DNA of 60,736 nucleotides from Bacteroidales bacterium (GTDB lineage Bacteria > Bacteroidota > Bacteroidia > Bacteroidales > F082). Location of the stretch: assembly GCA_015493525.1 (NCBI GenBank), contig WGCY01000024.1, forward strand, positions 1-60,736, read 5' to 3'. Positions within the stretch are counted from its first letter, which is position 1; every line of letters starts with the position of its first letter. The notes under the pieces are model-generated. The model worked only from the letters and a program-made list of their open reading frames with translations, did not search any database and had not been told where the DNA came from. Made by a program: the position numbers and the translations under genes. Shown here piece after piece: positions 20,009 to 51,881 of this stretch.

Positions 20009-23000
20009 ATGAGCGGAAAGAAAAAATTTATTACTTGTGACGGAAACTACGCTGCTGCCCATATCGCTTACATGTTTAGCGAAGTAGCTGCTATTTATCC
20101 TATCACACCTTCGTCAACCATGGCAGAATATGTGGACCAATGGGCTGCATTCGGCCAAAAAAATATTTTCGGGGAAACTGTCAAAGTTGTTGAAATGCAG
20201 TCGGAAGGTGGTGCTTCCGGTGCCGTACACGGCTCCTTGCAATCAGGTGCCCTGACCACAACTTTTACCGCCTCTCAGGGATTGTTGCTGATGATCCCCA
20301 ATATGTACAAGATTTCCGGTGAGCTGTTGCCGGCAGTATTTCACGTAAGTGCACGCAGCCTGGCCGCACAGGCACTTTCCATTTTTGGCGACCACAGCGA
20401 TGTGATGGCAACCCGTAATACAGGTTTTGCCATGCTGGCCACCGGGAGTGTTCAGGAAATTAACGACCTGGCAGGCATAGCCCATTTTGTGGCCCTGCGT
20501 TCCAGAATTCCTTTTGTCCACTTTTTTGATGGTTTCCGTACTTCTCACGAAATTCAGAAAATTGAATATTTTGAAGTAGAAGACCTGAAACACCTGTTTC
20601 CTTTCGAAGACCTGAAAAAATTCAGGGACAATGCTTTGAACCCCGAACATCCGGTTACCAGGGGCTCTGCCCAGAATCCTGATATTTATTTTCAGGCCCG
20701 TGAAGCCGGTAACCGGTTTTACACGCCTATTCCTGACATGGTGGAAGAATACATGCAGGAAATTACCAAACTCACCGGCCGCGAGTACCATCCATTCACT
20801 TATTACGGTGCAGAAGATGCCGAAAACATCGTAGTTGCCATGGGATCGGTAACCGAAACCATCCGCGAAACCATCGATTATCTTACCGCCAAAGGGGAAA
20901 AAGTCGGTTTGGTTACCGTGCATTTGTACCGTCCGTTCTCCACGGATTATTTAATGAAAGCCATTCCGAAGACAGTAAAAAATATTGCTGTCCTCGACCG
21001 TACCAAAGAACCGGGTGCCAATGGTGAGCCATTATATCTCGACATTAAAGAGGCTTTCTATGGCTTGGAAAACGAACCTGTTGTTGTTGGTGGCCGTTAT
21101 GGACTCAGCTCCAAAGACACCACTCCGGCGCAAATTGTTTCGGTGTTCAACAACCTGAAACAACCGGAGCCTAAAAATCATTTTACACTTGGAATTGTAG
21201 ATGACCTTACTTTCACCTCACTTCCACTGCTTCCGGAAATAAGTATTTCCGACAAGGGAACGGTTGAAGCCAAATTTTACGGGCTGGGGGCTGACGGAAC
21301 AGTTGGTGCCAACAAAAATTCCATTAAAATTATTGGTGAAACGACCGAGAAATATGCACAGGCCTATTTTGCCTACGACTCTAAGAAATCCGGTGGCATC
21401 ACCATCTCGCACCTTCGTTTTGGCGACAAGCCCATCCGCTCGACCTACATGGTTGGAACTCCCGACTTTGTTGCCTGCCACGTTCCGGCTTATCTTGGAA
21501 AATACGACATGCTGAAAGGCCTCAAAGATGGCGGCACTTTCCTGCTGAACAGTATTTGGGATGAGGAAGAAACCAAACGCCGGCTGCCTGATGACATGAA
21601 AAAATACATGGCCGACCACAAGATTAATTTCTATACCATTAACGCCACCAAAATTGCCAATGAAATCGGTTTGGGAAGCCGGACCAATACGATTATGCAA
21701 TCGGCTTTCTTTAAGGTTTCAGAGGTAATTCCTTACGACCAGGCTGTGGAAAAAATGAAATCGTTTATCCACAAGACCTATGGCCGTAAAGGGGATGAGA
21801 TTGTTGAAATGAATTACCGTGCCGTCGATGAGGGTGGCGATGTAACGAAAATCGAAATCCCTGAAGAATGGTCAAATATTGAGGTAAAAAAACAAAAACA
21901 AGCCGATGGCGATGTTCCTGCTTTCATTCGTGAAGTAGCCCGCCCCATTGATCACCTGAAAGGCGATGACCTGCCGGTAAGTGCTTTCAAAGGACGTGAA
22001 GATGGTACATTCCCTGCCGGGACAGCGGCTTACGAAAAACGGGGAGTTGCCGTGGATATTCCTGAATGGATTGGCGACAATTGTATTCAGTGTAACCAGT
22101 GCGCTTACGTTTGTCCCCACGCTGCCATCCGTCCGTTCCTGGTGAACGAGAAAGAAGAAAAGAATGCCCCTGAAGACATGCTTTTCCTCGAAACCAAAGG
22201 CAAACTGAAACCTTTGAAATACCGTATTCAGGTCAGCGTCATGGATTGTACCGGTTGTGGAAGTTGTGCCGACGTTTGTCCTTCTCCGGAGAAATCGCTG
22301 GTAATGAAAGCGTTCGAGACACAGAAACAAGAAGCCGAAAACTGGGATTATTTGATTAAAAATGTTACGGACAAAACTGCTGACGGAACAGTCAACAAAT
22401 TTATCAGTGTGAAGAACAGTCAGTTCTCCCAGCCACTCTTTGAATTTTCAGGAGCTTGTGCCGGTTGTGGCGAAACACCTTACATAAAAGCTGCCACACA
22501 GTTGTATGGCGACCGCATGATGATTGCCAACGCAACGGGATGTTCTTCCATTTACGGTGCTTCGGCCCCTGCTACTCCTTATACGGTAAACGCAGAAGGA
22601 AAAGGTCCGGCCTGGGCAAACTCCTTATTTGAAGACAATGCCGAGTACGGCCTGGGAATGGCTACCGGAATTCGCAAAATGCGCGATCGTATTGAACGTT
22701 TTATGGAAGAAGCCCTCAAAGCCGGTACAACCGAGGAAAGAAAAGAAGCTTTTGAGGCATGGATAGCTGCCAAAGATAATGGCGAAGAATCCAAGACTGC
22801 TTCCGCAAAAGTAGCAGAATTACTCAAGGGGGCCGATGATGAAACAGCCAAAAACATCATGGAACTGGAGCAATACCTTGTCAAAAAATCCATGTGGATT
22901 ATTGGTGGAGATGGCTGGGCCTATGACATTGGATACGGCGGACTGGACCATGTGCTGGCATCCGGCGAAGATGTCAACCTGCTGGTACTTGATACAGAGG

Positions 23001-23554
23001 TCTATTCCAATACAGGCGGACAGGCTTCCAAATCGAGCCAGACTGCTGCCGTTGCCAAATTTGCCACTGCCGGTAAAGAAATCCGCAAAAAAGACCTCGG
23101 GGCCATCTACATGACTTACGGTTATGTGTATGTTGCTTCGGTAGCCATGGGAGCTAACCAAAGCCAGTTCTTCAAAGCTTTGAAAGAAGCTGAGGCTTAC
23201 CCGGGACCGTCCATTATCATTGCCTACTCACCTTGTATTGCACACGGCCTGCGTAATGGCATGGCCCGTTCACAACACGAAGAGAAGCTGGCTGTTGAAG
23301 CTGGTTACTGGACAATGTACCGCTACAATCCGTTACTGGAACTCGAAGGCAAAAACCCACTTCAGCTTGATTCCAAAGAACCTGATTTTGAAAAATTAAA
23401 AGAATTTCACGATCTGGAAGTGCGTTTTACCTCGCTGAAAAAGGCTTTCCCCGAAAGGGCAAAAGAACTTCAGGAAGTAGCGCTCAAAAATGCCAAATGG
23501 CGTTATAATTTTTACAAACGCCAGGCTGATATCGATTATTCATCCGAAGATTAA
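20009..23554 (+). CDS. nifJ: Pyruvate:ferredoxin (flavodoxin) oxidoreductase
   Basis: It decarboxylates pyruvate to acetyl-CoA and CO2 and passes electrons to ferredoxin or flavodoxin, a sign of anaerobic energy metabolism. The 1181 residues have the size of the single-chain homodimeric enzyme. Domains can be read in order: N-terminal pyrimidine-binding domain (AAIYPITPSSTMAEYVDQWA), transketolase-C-like domain (YGAEDAENIVVAMGSV), gamma domain (SHLRFGDKPIRSTYMV), two 4Fe-4S motifs at about 692 (CIQCNQCAYVCP) and 746 (CTGCGSCADVCP), and the TPP domain with its extra cluster Cys (CAGCGETPY near 815; GGDGWAYDIGYGGLDH; LDTEVYSNTGGQASKS). It is preceded by a long leader and followed by a terminator. 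Confidence 0.97.
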   Translation: MSGKKKFITCDGNYAAAHIAYMFSEVAAIYPITPSSTMAEYVDQWAAFGQKNIFGETVKVVEMQSEGGASGAVHGSLQSGALTTTFTASQGLLLMIPNMYKISGELLPAVFHVSARSLAAQALSIFGDHSDVMATRNTGFAMLATGSVQEINDLAGIAHFVALRSRIPFVHFFDGFRTSHEIQKIEYFEVEDLKHLFPFEDLKKFRDNALNPEHPVTRGSAQNPDIYFQAREAGNRFYTPIPDMVEEYMQEITKLTGREYHPFTYYGAEDAENIVVAMGSVTETIRETIDYLTAKGEKVGLVTVHLYRPFSTDYLMKAIPKTVKNIAVLDRTKEPGANGEPLYLDIKEAFYGLENEPVVVGGRYGLSSKDTTPAQIVSVFNNLKQPEPKNHFTLGIVDDLTFTSLPLLPEISISDKGTVEAKFYGLGADGTVGANKNSIKIIGETTEKYAQAYFAYDSKKSGGITISHLRFGDKPIRSTYMVGTPDFVACHVPAYLGKYDMLKGLKDGGTFLLNSIWDEEETKRRLPDDMKKYMADHKINFYTINATKIANEIGLGSRTNTIMQSAFFKVSEVIPYDQAVEKMKSFIHKTYGRKGDEIVEMNYRAVDEGGDVTKIEIPEEWSNIEVKKQKQADGDVPAFIREVARPIDHLKGDDLPVSAFKGREDGTFPAGTAAYEKRGVAVDIPEWIGDNCIQCNQCAYVCPHAAIRPFLVNEKEEKNAPEDMLFLETKGKLKPLKYRIQVSVMDCTGCGSCADVCPSPEKSLVMKAFETQKQEAENWDYLIKNVTDKTADGTVNKFISVKNSQFSQPLFEFSGACAGCGETPYIKAATQLYGDRMMIANATGCSSIYGASAPATPYTVNAEGKGPAWANSLFEDNAEYGLGMATGIRKMRDRIERFMEEALKAGTTEERKEAFEAWIAAKDNGEESKTASAKVAELLKGADDETAKNIMELEQYLVKKSMWIIGGDGWAYDIGYGGLDHVLASGEDVNLLVLDTEVYSNTGGQASKSSQTAAVAKFATAGKEIRKKDLGAIYMTYGYVYVASVAMGANQSQFFKALKEAEAYPGPSIIIAYSPCIAHGLRNGMARSQHEEKLAVEAGYWTMYRYNPLLELEGKNPLQLDSKEPDFEKLKEFHDLEVRFTSLKKAFPERAKELQEVALKNAKWRYNFYKRQADIDYSSED

Positions 23555-47443: not shown

Positions 47444-48355
47444 TTATAAACAGATGCCTATCCCAAAAAGCACCGAAAACAACAGCGTGGAGAGTGCCAG
47501 CCGTTTCAAGTAGGGGTCAAGCAGGGCTTTGTCCCCTGTTTTGAAGATTCGTACCAAATCACGAATAAACAACGGGACAGTGAGCACAAAAAGTAAATTC
47601 CAAACAGAATGAAAATCCAGCAAAACATAAACCGCAGCAAAAATCAGGGCAAAACTGACAAGCAAAGCGTGATAAGCCCTTGCCCTGGCGTAACCCATCC
47701 GGGAGGCAATGGTATGTTTTCCTGAAGTACGGTCGTTGTCCATATCGCGCATATTATTGAGGTTCAGCACCCCGGCACTTAAAAAACCCATGGATGTGGC
47801 CGGCAGCAACAGCCGCCATTGAAACTGCAAGCTGTTGAGATAGTAAGTTCCCACCACCGCCACCAGGCCGAAAAAGACAAACACAAAAAAGTCGCCAAGG
47901 CCTTTATAACCATAGGCATGGGTGCCGGTAGTATATTTTATGGCGGCGGCAATGGCAGCTAGCCCTATCACAAGAAACAACAGGGCAGTAACAACATATG
48001 TCCCCAAAGCCACATAGAGCAAGGCCAGTCCGGAAACAAAAGAGAGCAACGAAAAAAGGATAATGGCCGATTTCATTTGCCGCGGTGTAATTTGTCCGCT
48101 TTGCACGGTCCGCTCCGGCCCTACCCTTTCGGTATTGTCCGTTCCTTTGAGGGCATCGCCATAGTCATTGGCCAGGTTTGATAAAATCTGCAGAAACAGC
48201 GTAGTCAGTAAAGCCAGCCCGATGATCCAACCGCGATACAAACCATCAGCGACAGCAAGAAAGCTGCCTGTGAGGATGGTGGACACGGCCAGCGGCAGCG
48301 TCCGCAAGCGGAAAGCTTCAACCCATATGGAAAACCGGGAACGTTCTGTCGTCAT
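47444..48355 (-). CDS. menA: 1,4-dihydroxy-2-naphthoate polyprenyltransferase
   Basis: MenA attaches a polyprenyl chain to 1,4-dihydroxy-2-naphthoate in menaquinone synthesis. The 303-residue UbiA-type membrane protein has RLRTLPLAVSTILTGSFLA, the first Asp-rich motif in ILSNLANDYGDALKGTDN, and the second in LNLNNMRDMDNDRTSGKHTI. About eight hydrophobic helices follow the family pattern. It lies 28 bases behind menB, and the two form an operon on the minus strand. Confidence 0.95.
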   Translation of the reverse strand: MTTERSRFSIWVEAFRLRTLPLAVSTILTGSFLAVADGLYRGWIIGLALLTTLFLQILSNLANDYGDALKGTDNTERVGPERTVQSGQITPRQMKSAIILFSLLSFVSGLALLYVALGTYVVTALLFLVIGLAAIAAAIKYTTGTHAYGYKGLGDFFVFVFFGLVAVVGTYYLNSLQFQWRLLLPATSMGFLSAGVLNLNNMRDMDNDRTSGKHTIASRMGYARARAYHALLVSFALIFAAVYVLLDFHSVWNLLFVLTVPLFIRDLVRIFKTGDKALLDPYLKRLALSTLLFSVLFGIGICL

Positions 48356-48383: not shown

Positions 48384-49205
48384 TTATGGGAATTTTGGAT
48401 ATTTATGAAAATCGGGTTCCCGTTTTTCGAGAAAAGCATTTTTCCCTTCCTGCGCCTCATCGGTCATGTAATAGAGTAAAGTGGCGTTGCCTGCAAATTC
48501 CTGCAACCCGATTTGTCCGTCCAGCTCGGCATTCAGCCCCAGCTTAATCATACGCAGGGCCATGGGGCTGCGTTTGTGCATGGTTAGGCACCAGTCCACG
48601 GTTTCGTCTTCCAGTTTTTCCAACGGAACCACTTTGTTGACCATTCCCATTTCTAATGCTTCCTGTGCCGTGTACTGTCTGTTGAGGAACCAGATTTCGC
48701 GGGCTTTTTTCTGCCCGACTATGCTGGCCAGGTAGGAGGAACCCAGCCCGGCATCGAAACTGCCCACTTTGGGGCCTGTCTGGCCAAACCGGGCATTTTC
48801 GGAAGCAATCGTCAGGTCGCAAACCACATGCAGCACATGGCCGCCGCCAATGGCAAAACCGTTCACCATGGCAATTACCGGTTTGGGGATACTCCGGATT
48901 TTGCGTTGCACATCCAACACGTTCAGGCGCGGAATACCATCCTTGCCAATGTAACCGCCTTTGCCTTTCACATTCTGGTCGCCACCGGCACAAAAAGCCT
49001 TGTCGCCTTCGCCTGTGAGCACCACGCTGTAAAGGGTCATGTCTTCACGGCAAATGTCCATGGCCACAGCCATTTCTAAAGTTGTAGTCGGCGTAAAAGC
49101 ATTATAATATCTTGGCCTGTTGATGGTTATCTTTGCAATATGGTTCCAGCGTTCGAATTTTATTTCTTCAAAATCACGGATTTTCTTCCATTCCCTTTTG
49201 CTCAT
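48384..49205 (-). CDS. menB: 1,4-dihydroxy-2-naphthoyl-CoA synthase
   Basis: MenB closes the second ring of o-succinylbenzoyl-CoA. The 273-residue crotonase-fold protein shows [69 protein letters not shown] (oxyanion hole), [20 protein letters not shown], and a final [16 protein letters not shown]. These are MenB-specific, not general enoyl-CoA hydratase, features. It is the first gene of the menB-menA operon and has a consensus promoter. Confidence 0.96.
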
Positions 49206-49288: not shown

Positions 49289-50518
49289 CTATTTCTTCAT
49301 TTTATTTTTCACTACGGAAGTAGCGGCTTTGACAGAAAACCGTGCCAGTTGTTCCAAAACGAAAGCGAGGTTGTCCATGGGAATCATACTTACCGTTTCG
49401 GTAATGGGGATAACTTTATGCAGGCGCAGGTTGGCACGCATAATCCAATCCATGGTAAACTCGTTGCGCATCCAGTATTTACTGTCTTCGCCCATGGCAT
49501 TCAGCCACTTCACACCACCATCCCATTTGCCTTTGCTTTTAATAAAATAAAGCGAGAACGCACCGATAATTTTCTGAAAATTCATGGTTTCCTGGTTACG
49601 CAGCGATTGGGCTATTTTGGAAAGTGTTTTCTGGTCCAGCCTGTTTTTTTTCATGGCTTTGGCAACTCCTTTGGCAAAGACCTGATACTGTTTCAGAATC
49701 TCATTAAAGCCCATGCCACAGCCATCAGGGTTGAGCATGCCGGATGCCCCGAAGAAAATAACGTTATCCAAAGCGTACTTTTTTAAAGAGCCTGAGACAA
49801 TGGTTCCACCCAGGTTCTGTATCTTTTTCCCTTCGGGTTCCAGTTCCTTGATGGTTTTCTCAAAAATATCCTTCAACTCAGCCGGATTGCCCATGGTGTT
49901 GCTTCGGCCCTGAAAAACATAAATATTTGTGATGGTACCGGAATGGGGATGAAGCCCCACATAGGTATTGTCTTTGTCGTTCAACGGATAGTATTCCAAC
50001 ACATACGGTTTCTCGTGCTTTTTGTGTTCAATCATTCCACCCCATATCACCCAGGCATCATGCCGTTTGATGAGGTTGTGTTTCTCCACAATGGGCGAAC
50101 CGGAACCCATGGCATCGATAAGCAGCCGGGCAAAGTATTCCCCCTCGCTGGTTTTCACCACCACGCCGTCTTCTTTGTATGCATAATCACGAAAAGTTTC
50201 CTGCCGTACCTCCGCACCGTTGGCTTTGGCACGTTCAAGCCATATTTGCAGCACCTTGTTATGGTCCAAAGTAACGGCCTCATCCATCATGTCGTGTTCC
50301 TGCGTGGGCGAAGTAAAACGGATACGGTCGAACCGGGCGACAACGGCTTCTTCAATATCATATTTCTTGACCCGGTCGGCATAACTGTACCACGTAGAAG
50401 AAGTCGTTCCGGGTTTCCGCCGTTCAATAATAAGAATTTTAAATTTCTTACTCAGTTCAACAGCAGCTGTCAAACCGCCCGGCCCGGCACCGGCAATAAT
50501 GATATCGTATTTATTCAT
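49289..50518 (-). CDS. FAD-dependent oxidoreductase, geranylgeranyl-reductase-like
   Basis: The 409-residue protein starts with a Rossmann FAD motif (YDIIIAGAGPGGLTAAVELS, then IIERRKPG). It has a LLIDAMGSGSPIV segment in place of the usual ADG..S, and a second FAD motif NVIFFGASGMLNPDGCGMGFNEIL where a GDA..P..G.G is expected. This places it in the broad group of geranylgeranyl reductases, lycopene cyclases and squalene epoxidase-like flavoproteins. The substrate is not clear. Position between menB-menA and a squalene synthase gene suggests a polyprenyl substrate. The start at 50518 places the Rossmann fold at the N-terminus. The C-terminal 130 residues are basic and helical. Confidence 0.78.
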   Translation of the reverse strand: MNKYDIIIAGAGPGGLTAAVELSKKFKILIIERRKPGTTSSTWYSYADRVKKYDIEEAVVARFDRIRFTSPTQEHDMMDEAVTLDHNKVLQIWLERAKANGAEVRQETFRDYAYKEDGVVVKTSEGEYFARLLIDAMGSGSPIVEKHNLIKRHDAWVIWGGMIEHKKHEKPYVLEYYPLNDKDNTYVGLHPHSGTITNIYVFQGRSNTMGNPAELKDIFEKTIKELEPEGKKIQNLGGTIVSGSLKKYALDNVIFFGASGMLNPDGCGMGFNEILKQYQVFAKGVAKAMKKNRLDQKTLSKIAQSLRNQETMNFQKIIGAFSLYFIKSKGKWDGGVKWLNAMGEDSKYWMRNEFTMDWIMRANLRLHKVIPITETVSMIPMDNLAFVLEQLARFSVKAATSVVKNKMKK

Positions 50519-50553
50519 TTTCTGATCTTTCTTAAAAAATTTTACGCCAATCG

Positions 50554-50568
50554 CCATACGGCGTATGG
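50554..50568. promoter_or_regulatory. Palindrome in the divergent flavoprotein-squalene synthase region
   Basis: CCATACG-G-CGTATGG is a perfect 15-base palindrome, 36 bases upstream of the flavoprotein ATG and about 150 bases upstream of the squalene synthase promoter box. It is placed like an operator, but there is only one copy and no known regulator. Confidence 0.4.
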
Positions 50569-50715
50569 TTTATTCAAAAACAGACAAAGTAATAATTAAT
50601 TAAATATCAGGCAATTCAAAATGATATTCCGTCTTTATAGTTTTATGCAAAGAAAAGAATAATTTCCATTCAATTAAAATTCCCCGAATTAAAGGCTTCA
50701 TAAGTCTAAAATTCA

Positions 50716-50723
50716 TAGATTTG
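50716..50723 (+). promoter_or_regulatory. -7 box of the squalene synthase gene
   Basis: TAGATTTG matches TAnnTTTG and ends 15 bases before the ATG at 50739, so the leader would be about ten bases. Confidence 0.65.
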
Positions 50724-50738
50724 CCAAAAACGAGGTAA

Positions 50739-51881
50739 ATGATACCGACATTATACAAATCGGCACTTCACCCGCGGGAAGTCAGGGCCCTTTTGAGTTT
50801 AAAGATTAAAGGCCAGAGATTTGCGGTTCCTAAAGAACCGCTGAATACGCTGGCTATGACATTGAATGATGAGGACTTTTGTTGTGCAGCGTTAAGCAAA
50901 GTTTCCCGTTCATTTGCTGTTGTCATCCAACAACTGAGCGAAAACCTGAGAAATGGGGTTTGTGTCTTTTACCTCGTACTCCGGGCACTGGATACCATTG
51001 AAGATGACATGCGTTTTCCACAAGCCGAGAAACTCGAATTGCTGCGTAACTTTTATAAAAAAAGCTACGACGAAGATTTTACTTTGCAAAATATTGGCGA
51101 CCAGGAAGATTACCGGGTACTATTGGCCCATTATGACAAAGTCATCCGGTTTTTTAAGGGACTGGACAAAGGTTACCGCGATGTGATTGTGGACATTACA
51201 AAAAAAATGGGCAACGGCATGGCCGATTTTGCAGAAAAAGAGGTAGTAACCATTGAAGATTACAACCTTTACTGTCACTATGTGGCCGGATTGGTGGGAA
51301 TAGGACTTTCCGAACTGTTTTCCGCTTCAGGATTGGAAAGCCCCGGTTTAAAAAGCCAGCATGACCTTTCCAATTCCATGGGGCTGTTCCTGCAAAAGAC
51401 CAACATTATCCGTGATTATCATGAAGACCTTTTTTCCGACCGTACTTTCTGGCCCAAAGAGATTTGGGGAAAATATGCCGATAAACTTACTTTTTTTACG
51501 GAGAATCCACATGCCCCCAAATCGCTGGATTGCCTGAACGAGATGGTAATGAATGCACTGGGGCATCTCCCTGACGTAGTAGATTATCTGAGGTTACTTA
51601 AAGACAAGAGCATTTTCCGGTTTGCCGCCATCCCGCAGGTAATGGCCATTGCCACCCTCGCAGCTGTTTTTAACAACCCGAAAGTTTTTACCGGTGTAGT
51701 TAAAGTACGCAAAGGACTGGCCGCCAGGTTAATCCTTTATGACCTGTCGTTGGATGACACCCTGAAATATTTTAAAAAATACAGCCGCGTGTTTCTGCGG
51801 AAATCACCGGCAGGAAGTGAACTTCATAAACAACTTTTGGCCTGGTCGAAAACGCTGGACCAAAAGATCAAAGAGGGCTGA
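50739..51881 (+). CDS. Squalene synthase, eukaryotic (ERG9/FDFT1) type
   Basis: It should join two farnesyl diphosphates to squalene through presqualene diphosphate. All catalytic elements of the eukaryotic enzyme are present: SRSFAVVIQQL (56-66), the first Asp-rich motif DTIEDD (85-90) preceded by RNGVCVFYLVLRAL, YCHYVAGLVGIGL with the essential Tyr178, NSMGLFLQKTNIIRDYHED with the second motif DYHED (226-230), FRFAAIPQVMAIATLAA with the Phe pair 293/295, and VVKVRKGLAARLIL. The N-terminal leader (HPREV, then LKIKGQRFAVPKE) aligns with the human one. The C-terminal membrane helix is missing; the protein ends at residue 380. Phytoene synthases and HpnC/HpnD do not share these segments. Divergent from a flavoprotein gene. 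Confidence 0.93.
   Translation: MIPTLYKSALHPREVRALLSLKIKGQRFAVPKEPLNTLAMTLNDEDFCCAALSKVSRSFAVVIQQLSENLRNGVCVFYLVLRALDTIEDDMRFPQAEKLELLRNFYKKSYDEDFTLQNIGDQEDYRVLLAHYDKVIRFFKGLDKGYRDVIVDITKKMGNGMADFAEKEVVTIEDYNLYCHYVAGLVGIGLSELFSASGLESPGLKSQHDLSNSMGLFLQKTNIIRDYHEDLFSDRTFWPKEIWGKYADKLTFFTENPHAPKSLDCLNEMVMNALGHLPDVVDYLRLLKDKSIFRFAAIPQVMAIATLAAVFNNPKVFTGVVKVRKGLAARLILYDLSLDDTLKYFKKYSRVFLRKSPAGSELHKQLLAWSKTLDQKIKEG

Follow-up and report, generated by a model that had tools for sequence, protein, structure and literature searches.

Squalene is usually regarded as an intermediate on the way to sterols or hopanoids. In bacteria it can be made by the HpnC/HpnD/HpnE route, and squalane-like hydrocarbons are usually credited to archaea. 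Eukaryotic squalene synthases possess a C-terminal membrane anchor, which is not needed for membership of the TIGR01559 family. Sterol production is known in the Bacteroidota, where Fluviicola taffensis makes cycloartenol (PMC4919349). PMC10821996 and PMC12669819 propose, for archaea, that squalene is hydrogenated to an apolar membrane lipid. In the literature searched, including PMC4919349, PMC10070321, PMC10821996, PMC12669819 and PMC13170169, a squalene synthase-reductase pair was not found for the Bacteroidota; the synthase itself has possibly been noticed before.

Here we describe a locus in a stretch of 60,736 nucleotides from a Bacteroidales bacterium (contig WGCY01000024.1), which is called the window as a whole. 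It carries a squalene synthase gene (SQS) and, divergent to it, a gene for a flavoprotein resembling geranylgeranyl reductases (GGR). The reading that we favour, with somewhat better than even confidence, is that the two genes are the remnant of a sterol locus and provide acyclic, perhaps partly hydrogenated squalene as a neutral membrane lipid.

Results

Squalene synthase of the window

The open reading frame at 50739-51881 on the forward strand was found as described, with an ATG start and 380 amino acids. The preliminary description had taken its product for a squalene synthase of the FDFT1/ERG9 kind, and the searches bear this out. The TIGR01559 squalene synthase profile of NCBIfam scored 440.6 bits, over a cut-off of 286.75, and PF00494 of Pfam scored 158.1 bits. 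HpnC, HpnD and phytoene synthase, from which the protein had been set apart, were indeed represented by models scoring far under their cut-offs: 46 bits for HpnD (cut-off 278.6), 23 bits for HpnC (250.45) and 22-30 bits for three CrtB models (480-550). A sequence search of the PDB retrieved the T. cruzi squalene synthase with an E value of 4.4e-93, and the AF2 model of the window protein (mean pLDDT 90.7) had the same enzyme as its best fold match (3wca; rmsd 1.4, 46% identity, TM 0.95 by target). Over about 335 columns of the fold search, the identity was mostly about 43-44% with human squalene synthase and 42% with that of Aspergillus flavus. The TM by target was about 0.95 for the T. cruzi and human enzymes, in contrast to 0.70-0.77 for dehydrosqualene synthases and CrtM-like entries.

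All residues that the preliminary description had pointed out were at the positions given, i.e., the two Asp-rich motifs D85-T-I-E-D89-D90 and D226-Y-H-E-D230, Y178, F293/F295 and the loop VVKVRKG at 320-326. In an alignment of 15 squalene synthases (A4), D85, E88, D89, Y178, D226, D230, F295, V321 and K322 were invariant, and D90, E229, F293, R324, K325 and G326 were nearly so. The Tyr and Phe positions and the two Asp-rich motifs are those that we take to be functional in this enzyme. The C-terminal anchor was absent, also as reported before; the most hydrophobic 19-residue stretch among the last 60 residues had a mean hydropathy of 0.56. Likewise, a 19-mer with mean hydropathy above 1.6 was found in the last 60 residues of none of the 61 relatives checked, a set from which the partial L093 and L114 and the fused L103 and L104 had been left out. 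At the other end of the protein, where the preliminary description had seen a leader, the PDB alignments listed began at query residues 40-47 and that of TIGR01559 at residue 46.

Among the window and three related loci (L051, L052 and L151), pN of SQS was 0.10-0.13 and pS was 0.73-0.78; the synonymous sites are near saturation, and therefore the exact ratio is not claimed. The window genome has this protein as its sole match to the squalene/phytoene synthase family (SQS_PSY). From family membership and the conserved residues, we strongly infer that the frame encodes a working squalene synthase, which converts two molecules of farnesyl diphosphate to squalene.

The divergent flavoprotein

On the reverse strand at 49289-50557 lies the GGR gene, a neighbour that seems to matter and was absent from the finding of the preliminary description. 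It was annotated as a geranylgeranyl-reductase-like FAD protein from TIGR02032, the AF2 fold and its co-occurrence with SQS. Translation may in fact begin at codon 14 (base 50518), since M14 is the first invariant residue among the relatives. The match to TIGR02032 (GG-red-SF) covered nearly the full domain but was weak (49.2 bits against a cut-off of 158.8), and Pfam recognized general FAD-binding families only. Because searches of the PDB by sequence gave mainly short Rossmann matches, the assignment rests on the fold and the weak profile match. The AF2 model, which had a mean pLDDT of 76.6 and was weak in its C-terminal part (from about residue 321 onward), had a geranylgeranyl reductase, 3oz2, as its top match (TM 0.70 by target), followed by 4opg and others, with six further geranylgeranyl reductase entries in the top 20. 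Flavin halogenases and other flavoproteins scored almost equally; human squalene epoxidase was at rank 47. Ten aligned members showed a mean column identity of 72%; GMLNPDGCGMGFNEIL and KWDGGVKWLNAM are among the conserved blocks. For GGR, pN was 0.09-0.13 and pS was 0.67-0.78 among the window, L051, L052 and L151. The leading reading, suggested by the modelled fold, is a reductase of an isoprenoid; it is one among others, since the flavin halogenases follow so closely in the fold search. That the substrate would be squalene is a guess.

The two genes are separated by an intergenic gap at 50558-50738, which is possibly a shared control region. A promoter scan of the gap region gave 2 sites, as compared with 3.3 in shuffled sequences, and a repeat scan of the gap found only two short inverted repeats and nothing beyond chance.

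Distribution of the two genes

In a draw of 295 genomes from the class, six exceeded the TIGR01559 cut-off, namely the window's own and five of one other family; in a draw of 393 from the order, which included no more than five members of the window's family, one did. Among 60 nearer relatives, nine genomes had SQS, and full-length GGR was present in exactly the same nine. The Fisher test gave p 6.8e-11 with kinship ignored, a value that overstates independence because the nine genomes are related. At E 0.001 or better, 30 of the 60 genomes had some match to GGR, and 21 of these were without the full-length protein; the matches of these 21 genomes and the further copies were disregarded, since none exceeded about 225 residues or 26.5 bits. 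Within the window's genus, SQS was found in six of 12 genomes (G000, which is the window's own, G692, G694, G695, G698 and G701).

G692 (L157, L093) has its SQS broken into two frames and an internal stop in GGR, while the adjacent menB and menA match over their full length; an assembly error is possible there. This broken pair, together with the absence of both genes from the other half of the genus (6/12), would suit a relic, in which the sterol route is being lost, the two genes linger and squalene has no function of its own. Such decay is hard to reconcile with the low pN and high pS of both genes, which speak for constraint over a long divergence in genomes without epoxidase or cyclase, and we consider it improbable.

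A scan of named genomes yielded 70 SQS loci, of which 61 are labelled Bacteroidota and five are distant relatives from other phyla. A Thermoplasmata archaeon MAG, L117, encodes a distant relative of SQS (34%). Four further loci nest among the Bacteroidota rows of the tree, from two 'Chlorobiota' MAGs, a 'Competibacteraceae' MAG and a 'Glaciecola' record; the labels of these records (Chlorobiota, Ca. Competibacteraceae and Glaciecola amylolytica; L061, L068, L066, L107) may be wrong. No relative was found in viral contigs scanned with the window SQS and with alignment A1. The fetched stretch contained GGR in nine of the 70 loci and did not in 61. Two more places of the pair were L054 and L081, the latter a Eudoraea contig with a GGR of 59% identity in convergent orientation with SQS. 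With no GGR seen in 61 of 70 loci, including L061 and L068, the link between the two genes is confined to a few related genomes and this one Eudoraea contig.

Gene neighbourhood

The gene order in the window is menA, menB and GGR on the reverse strand, followed by SQS on the forward strand. menB at 48384-49205 (PRK07396, 465.7 bits over a cut-off of 380) and menA at 47444-48355 (PRK06080.1-2, 369.6 bits over 346), both on the reverse strand, were assigned with the additional support of synteny. Since they adjoin the SQS-GGR pair in four of the six SQS-bearing genomes of the genus, and both also occur near SQS in related sterol loci, menB at a distance of a few kb, GGR could instead reduce the side chain of menaquinone, with unmodified squalene as the end product and the two functions merely sharing a neighbourhood. 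The same superfamily includes a prenyl reductase reported to be specific for menaquinone, the archaeal AF_0648 (PMC10821996). However, menB was found in 39 of the 60 relatives, 30 of which have neither SQS nor GGR, while full-length GGR never occurred in the 60 without SQS. Moreover, in G701 and G698 the pair stays together and apart from menBA. We regard a menaquinone reductase as unlikely, though it deserves serious consideration.

Sterol-type relatives, epoxidase and cyclase

Squalene epoxidase (SQE; at least 250 residues at 38% identity) was present in the fetched stretch of 46 of the 70 SQS loci, and oxidosqualene cyclase (OSC; at least 150 residues at 38%) in 26, all within these 46. Many of the stretches end at contig ends, and two Eudoraea genomes, G688 and G689, have both enzymes elsewhere in the genome. 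From these neighbours in the wider set, SQS of the Bacteroidota looks to be mostly an enzyme of the sterol pathway. In G709 (L158), G702 (L160) and L054, the order is OSC and GGR in one direction and SQS, SQE, menB and menA in the other; in G721 (L159), GGR is cut off by the end of the contig, and the cyclase is not seen. (The loci of G709, G702 and G721 appear as L056, L060 and L062 in the named scan, and those of the window's genus as L051 for G701, L052 for G695, L053 for G698 and L093 for G692.) The cyclase of L158 scored 679 bits with TIGR01787, over a cut-off of 322.7, and stayed under the cut-offs of TIGR03463 for oxidosqualene cyclase (675 versus 851) and TIGR01507 for hopene cyclase (220 versus 431); its epoxidase scored 229.5 bits with PF08491. 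GGR is not in its place in L061, which otherwise has the sterol order, and the stretch of L068 contains SQS, SQE, menB and menA but lacks both GGR and cyclase. These two loci argue against a strict need for GGR.

Several other arrangements were seen in the sterol-type loci. A gene of the glycerophosphodiester phosphodiesterase family stands between squalene epoxidase and menB in G709 (L158, 12076-13140). In a Flavobacteriales MAG (L104; L007, G169), SQS and squalene epoxidase are joined in one frame of about 850 amino acids with a cyclase gene adjoining, and in L103 a frame of 836 amino acids spans both matches. G688, the Eudoraea MAG of L081, has full-length epoxidase at two places, in both cases on a contig that also matches the cyclase, which suggests that it holds two sterol loci.

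The preliminary description had noted that no cyclase is in the window. This absence extends to the whole window genome, where neither PF13243 nor PF13249 had any match, so that a squalene-hopene cyclase was not found by these families. None of the genus's 12 genomes had a PF13249 match, not even G694, which is assembled into a single 3.27 Mb contig; the family was present in nine of 20 genomes searched, among them relatives with sterol loci. The genome-wide epoxidase search covered 20 genomes, and 11 had a full-length epoxidase. In the five of the genus's six SQS genomes that it covered (G000, G701, G695, G698 and G692), only Rossmann matches of 32-41 residues and at most 24.4 bits were obtained, the best in G000 being of 37 residues and 20.3 bits. 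A full-length epoxidase was likewise found in none of the four SQS-free genomes of the window's family. Thus, the genes of a bacterial sterol pathway, epoxidase together with oxidosqualene cyclase, were not found in the window genome. Two many-contig drafts, G685 (= G721) and G687, have epoxidase and no cyclase match.

Cyclisation might still proceed by a non-homologous enzyme, e.g., of class I type, or by an epoxidase and cyclase that fall in an assembly gap: G000 is 96.4% complete in 53 contigs, and the homologues sought were those of known families only. On the other hand, the known-type cyclase is missing from the genus throughout, single-contig genome included, and the epoxidase from every SQS genome tested, and we judge hidden cyclisation to be quite improbable. 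Among the fates of squalene that had been suggested earlier, hopanoids and sterols are thus disfavoured, since the cyclase and epoxidase genes were not found in the 12 and five genomes, respectively; a membrane lipid of its own is the use that remains.

Descent of the locus

The preliminary description had seen in the likeness to the human and yeast enzymes a reason to consider lateral transfer in either direction. The eight closest relatives of the window SQS are from its own genus and family, with identities of 82, 80, 79, 78, 68, 61, 61 and 58%, and SQS in the wider set is mostly found beside sterol genes. A special status of the protein, or a recent exchange with eukaryotes, is therefore not supported by the likeness. 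In a tree of 72 rows, from which the partial L093 and L114 were left out and in which the eukaryotes were represented by two fragments, the reduced-type loci (window, L051, L052, L053 and L151) formed a clade with support of 100/99. Its sister (99/97) consisted of the sterol-type L054, L056, L060, L061, L062 and L068. The two eukaryotic fragments paired together outside the window's clade, with a tentative place among the Bacteroidota rows. When the 65 rows on the Bacteroidota side were forced into one clade, the likelihood was better than that of the free search and the tree was not rejected (p-AU 0.81); this test was done with a quick tree of 69 rows, L118-L120 being left out. A recent eukaryotic donor is opposed by the trees, in which the eukaryotes are the two fragments and the deep forks are tentative. 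An ancient exchange of SQS between Bacteroidota and eukaryotes, in either direction, is possible, and this part of the earlier suggestion stands.

Assembly contamination was rejected in view of the synteny within the genus. The window menB is 95-98% and menA 74-78% like those of SQS-bearing members of the genus, the values for G698 being 94% and 67%. A recent transfer from a eukaryote, or contamination, would accord with the likeness to the human and trypanosome enzymes; the nearest relatives, mostly with the same neighbours, the flanking menB and menA and the position of the eukaryotic fragments all stand against it, and we hold it to be extremely improbable.

A tree built from menB and menA of 22 loci united the genus's six genomes with SQS (89/88) and placed the six sterol-type loci in a group elsewhere (88/91). 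Neither group was starred, SQS-free relatives stood around them, and presence requires at least two changes. Either the pair was passed on without epoxidase and cyclase, or the ancestral locus was lost in several lines.

Oxygen-related genes

The window genome had COX1-family matches of 397.5, 191.6 and 24.1 bits, the third under the cut-off, and a bd oxidase match of 554.4 bits. Judging from the frame lengths, the first two are probably cbb3-type and NorB-like. The window also contains a pyruvate:ferredoxin oxidoreductase of 1181 amino acids (20009-23554), a sign of anaerobic or facultative metabolism. These predicted genes fit a cell that is facultative or microaerobic. The idea that epoxidase is missing because of strict anaerobiosis is weakened by the COX1-family and bd oxidase matches; with heme-copper-type and bd oxidases of its own, lack of oxygen alone does not explain the missing gene in this organism. 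COX1 matches above 500 bits were found in five of the six epoxidase genomes searched (G709, G721, G682, G686 and G687), G702 being the exception, and the genus's six genomes with SQS had none. This pattern is only a hint, because G700 of the genus and G712 of the family also have such matches and are without SQS.

Discussion

Related bacteria keep the squalene step and a flavoprotein under constraint, and epoxidase and a known-type cyclase were not found in them. The favoured course, that of a reduced sterol locus, would be as follows. SQS and GGR would form a two-gene divergent unit that derives from a Bacteroidota sterol locus (cyclase, GGR, SQS and epoxidase) and was either left behind in part of one genus or handed on to it. 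The synthase would, as is strongly suggested, join two farnesyl diphosphates to squalene, which would stay acyclic because the genes for epoxidation and known-type cyclisation were not found. The GGR flavoprotein most likely hydrogenates some of the double bonds of squalene, as its co-occurrence, neighbourhood and fold would indicate. By analogy with the archaeal proposals, squalene or hydrosqualene would then serve as a neutral or apolar membrane lipid in a microaerobic or facultatively anaerobic cell, and its synthesis would involve no oxygen-dependent step. A more specific version, in which GGR is a dedicated squalene reductase that represents a new branch within the superfamily of geranylgeranyl reductases and the product a hydrogenated squalene membrane lipid, is put forward tentatively, as it is rather doubtful. 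If it is true, the reductase in the sterol-locus relatives would act on one terminal isoprene, saturating it either ahead of cyclisation or afterwards, and the pair would be a bacterial source of squalane-like hydrocarbons. Should squalene or hydrosqualene be the end product of the pair, this would bear on membrane tuning in bacteria without sterols, on which organisms produce squalane-like hydrocarbons, and on what an uncharacterised family of flavoproteins does.

Compared with the known squalene synthases of FDFT1/ERG9 type (3wca, human 1ezf/3vj8 and A. flavus 7wgh), the window protein shares the fold, the Asp-rich motifs, the Tyr and Phe positions and the basic loop, but is bacterial, has no C-terminal anchor and is not beside sterol genes. 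It differs from the HpnC/HpnD/HpnE route in that the HpnC and HpnD models scored far under their cut-offs. The sterol-type SQS-SQE-OSC loci of the Bacteroidota, known from many MAGs and Fluviicola, contain related synthases, and three of the six loci in the sister clade carry GGR, menB and menA in one stretch; in the window's genus, however, neither epoxidase nor known-type cyclase was found. GGR has its best fold matches in the geranylgeranyl reductase superfamily (3oz2, 3atq, 4opg; TIGR02032), from which it differs in its identity of about 17%, its score under the curated cut-off and conserved C-terminal blocks of its own. With the archaeal squalene/squalane systems, the window may share the logic that squalene is made and then hydrogenated as an apolar membrane lipid, whereas here the setting is bacterial, the synthase and GGR form a defined gene pair, and the reduction step is putative.
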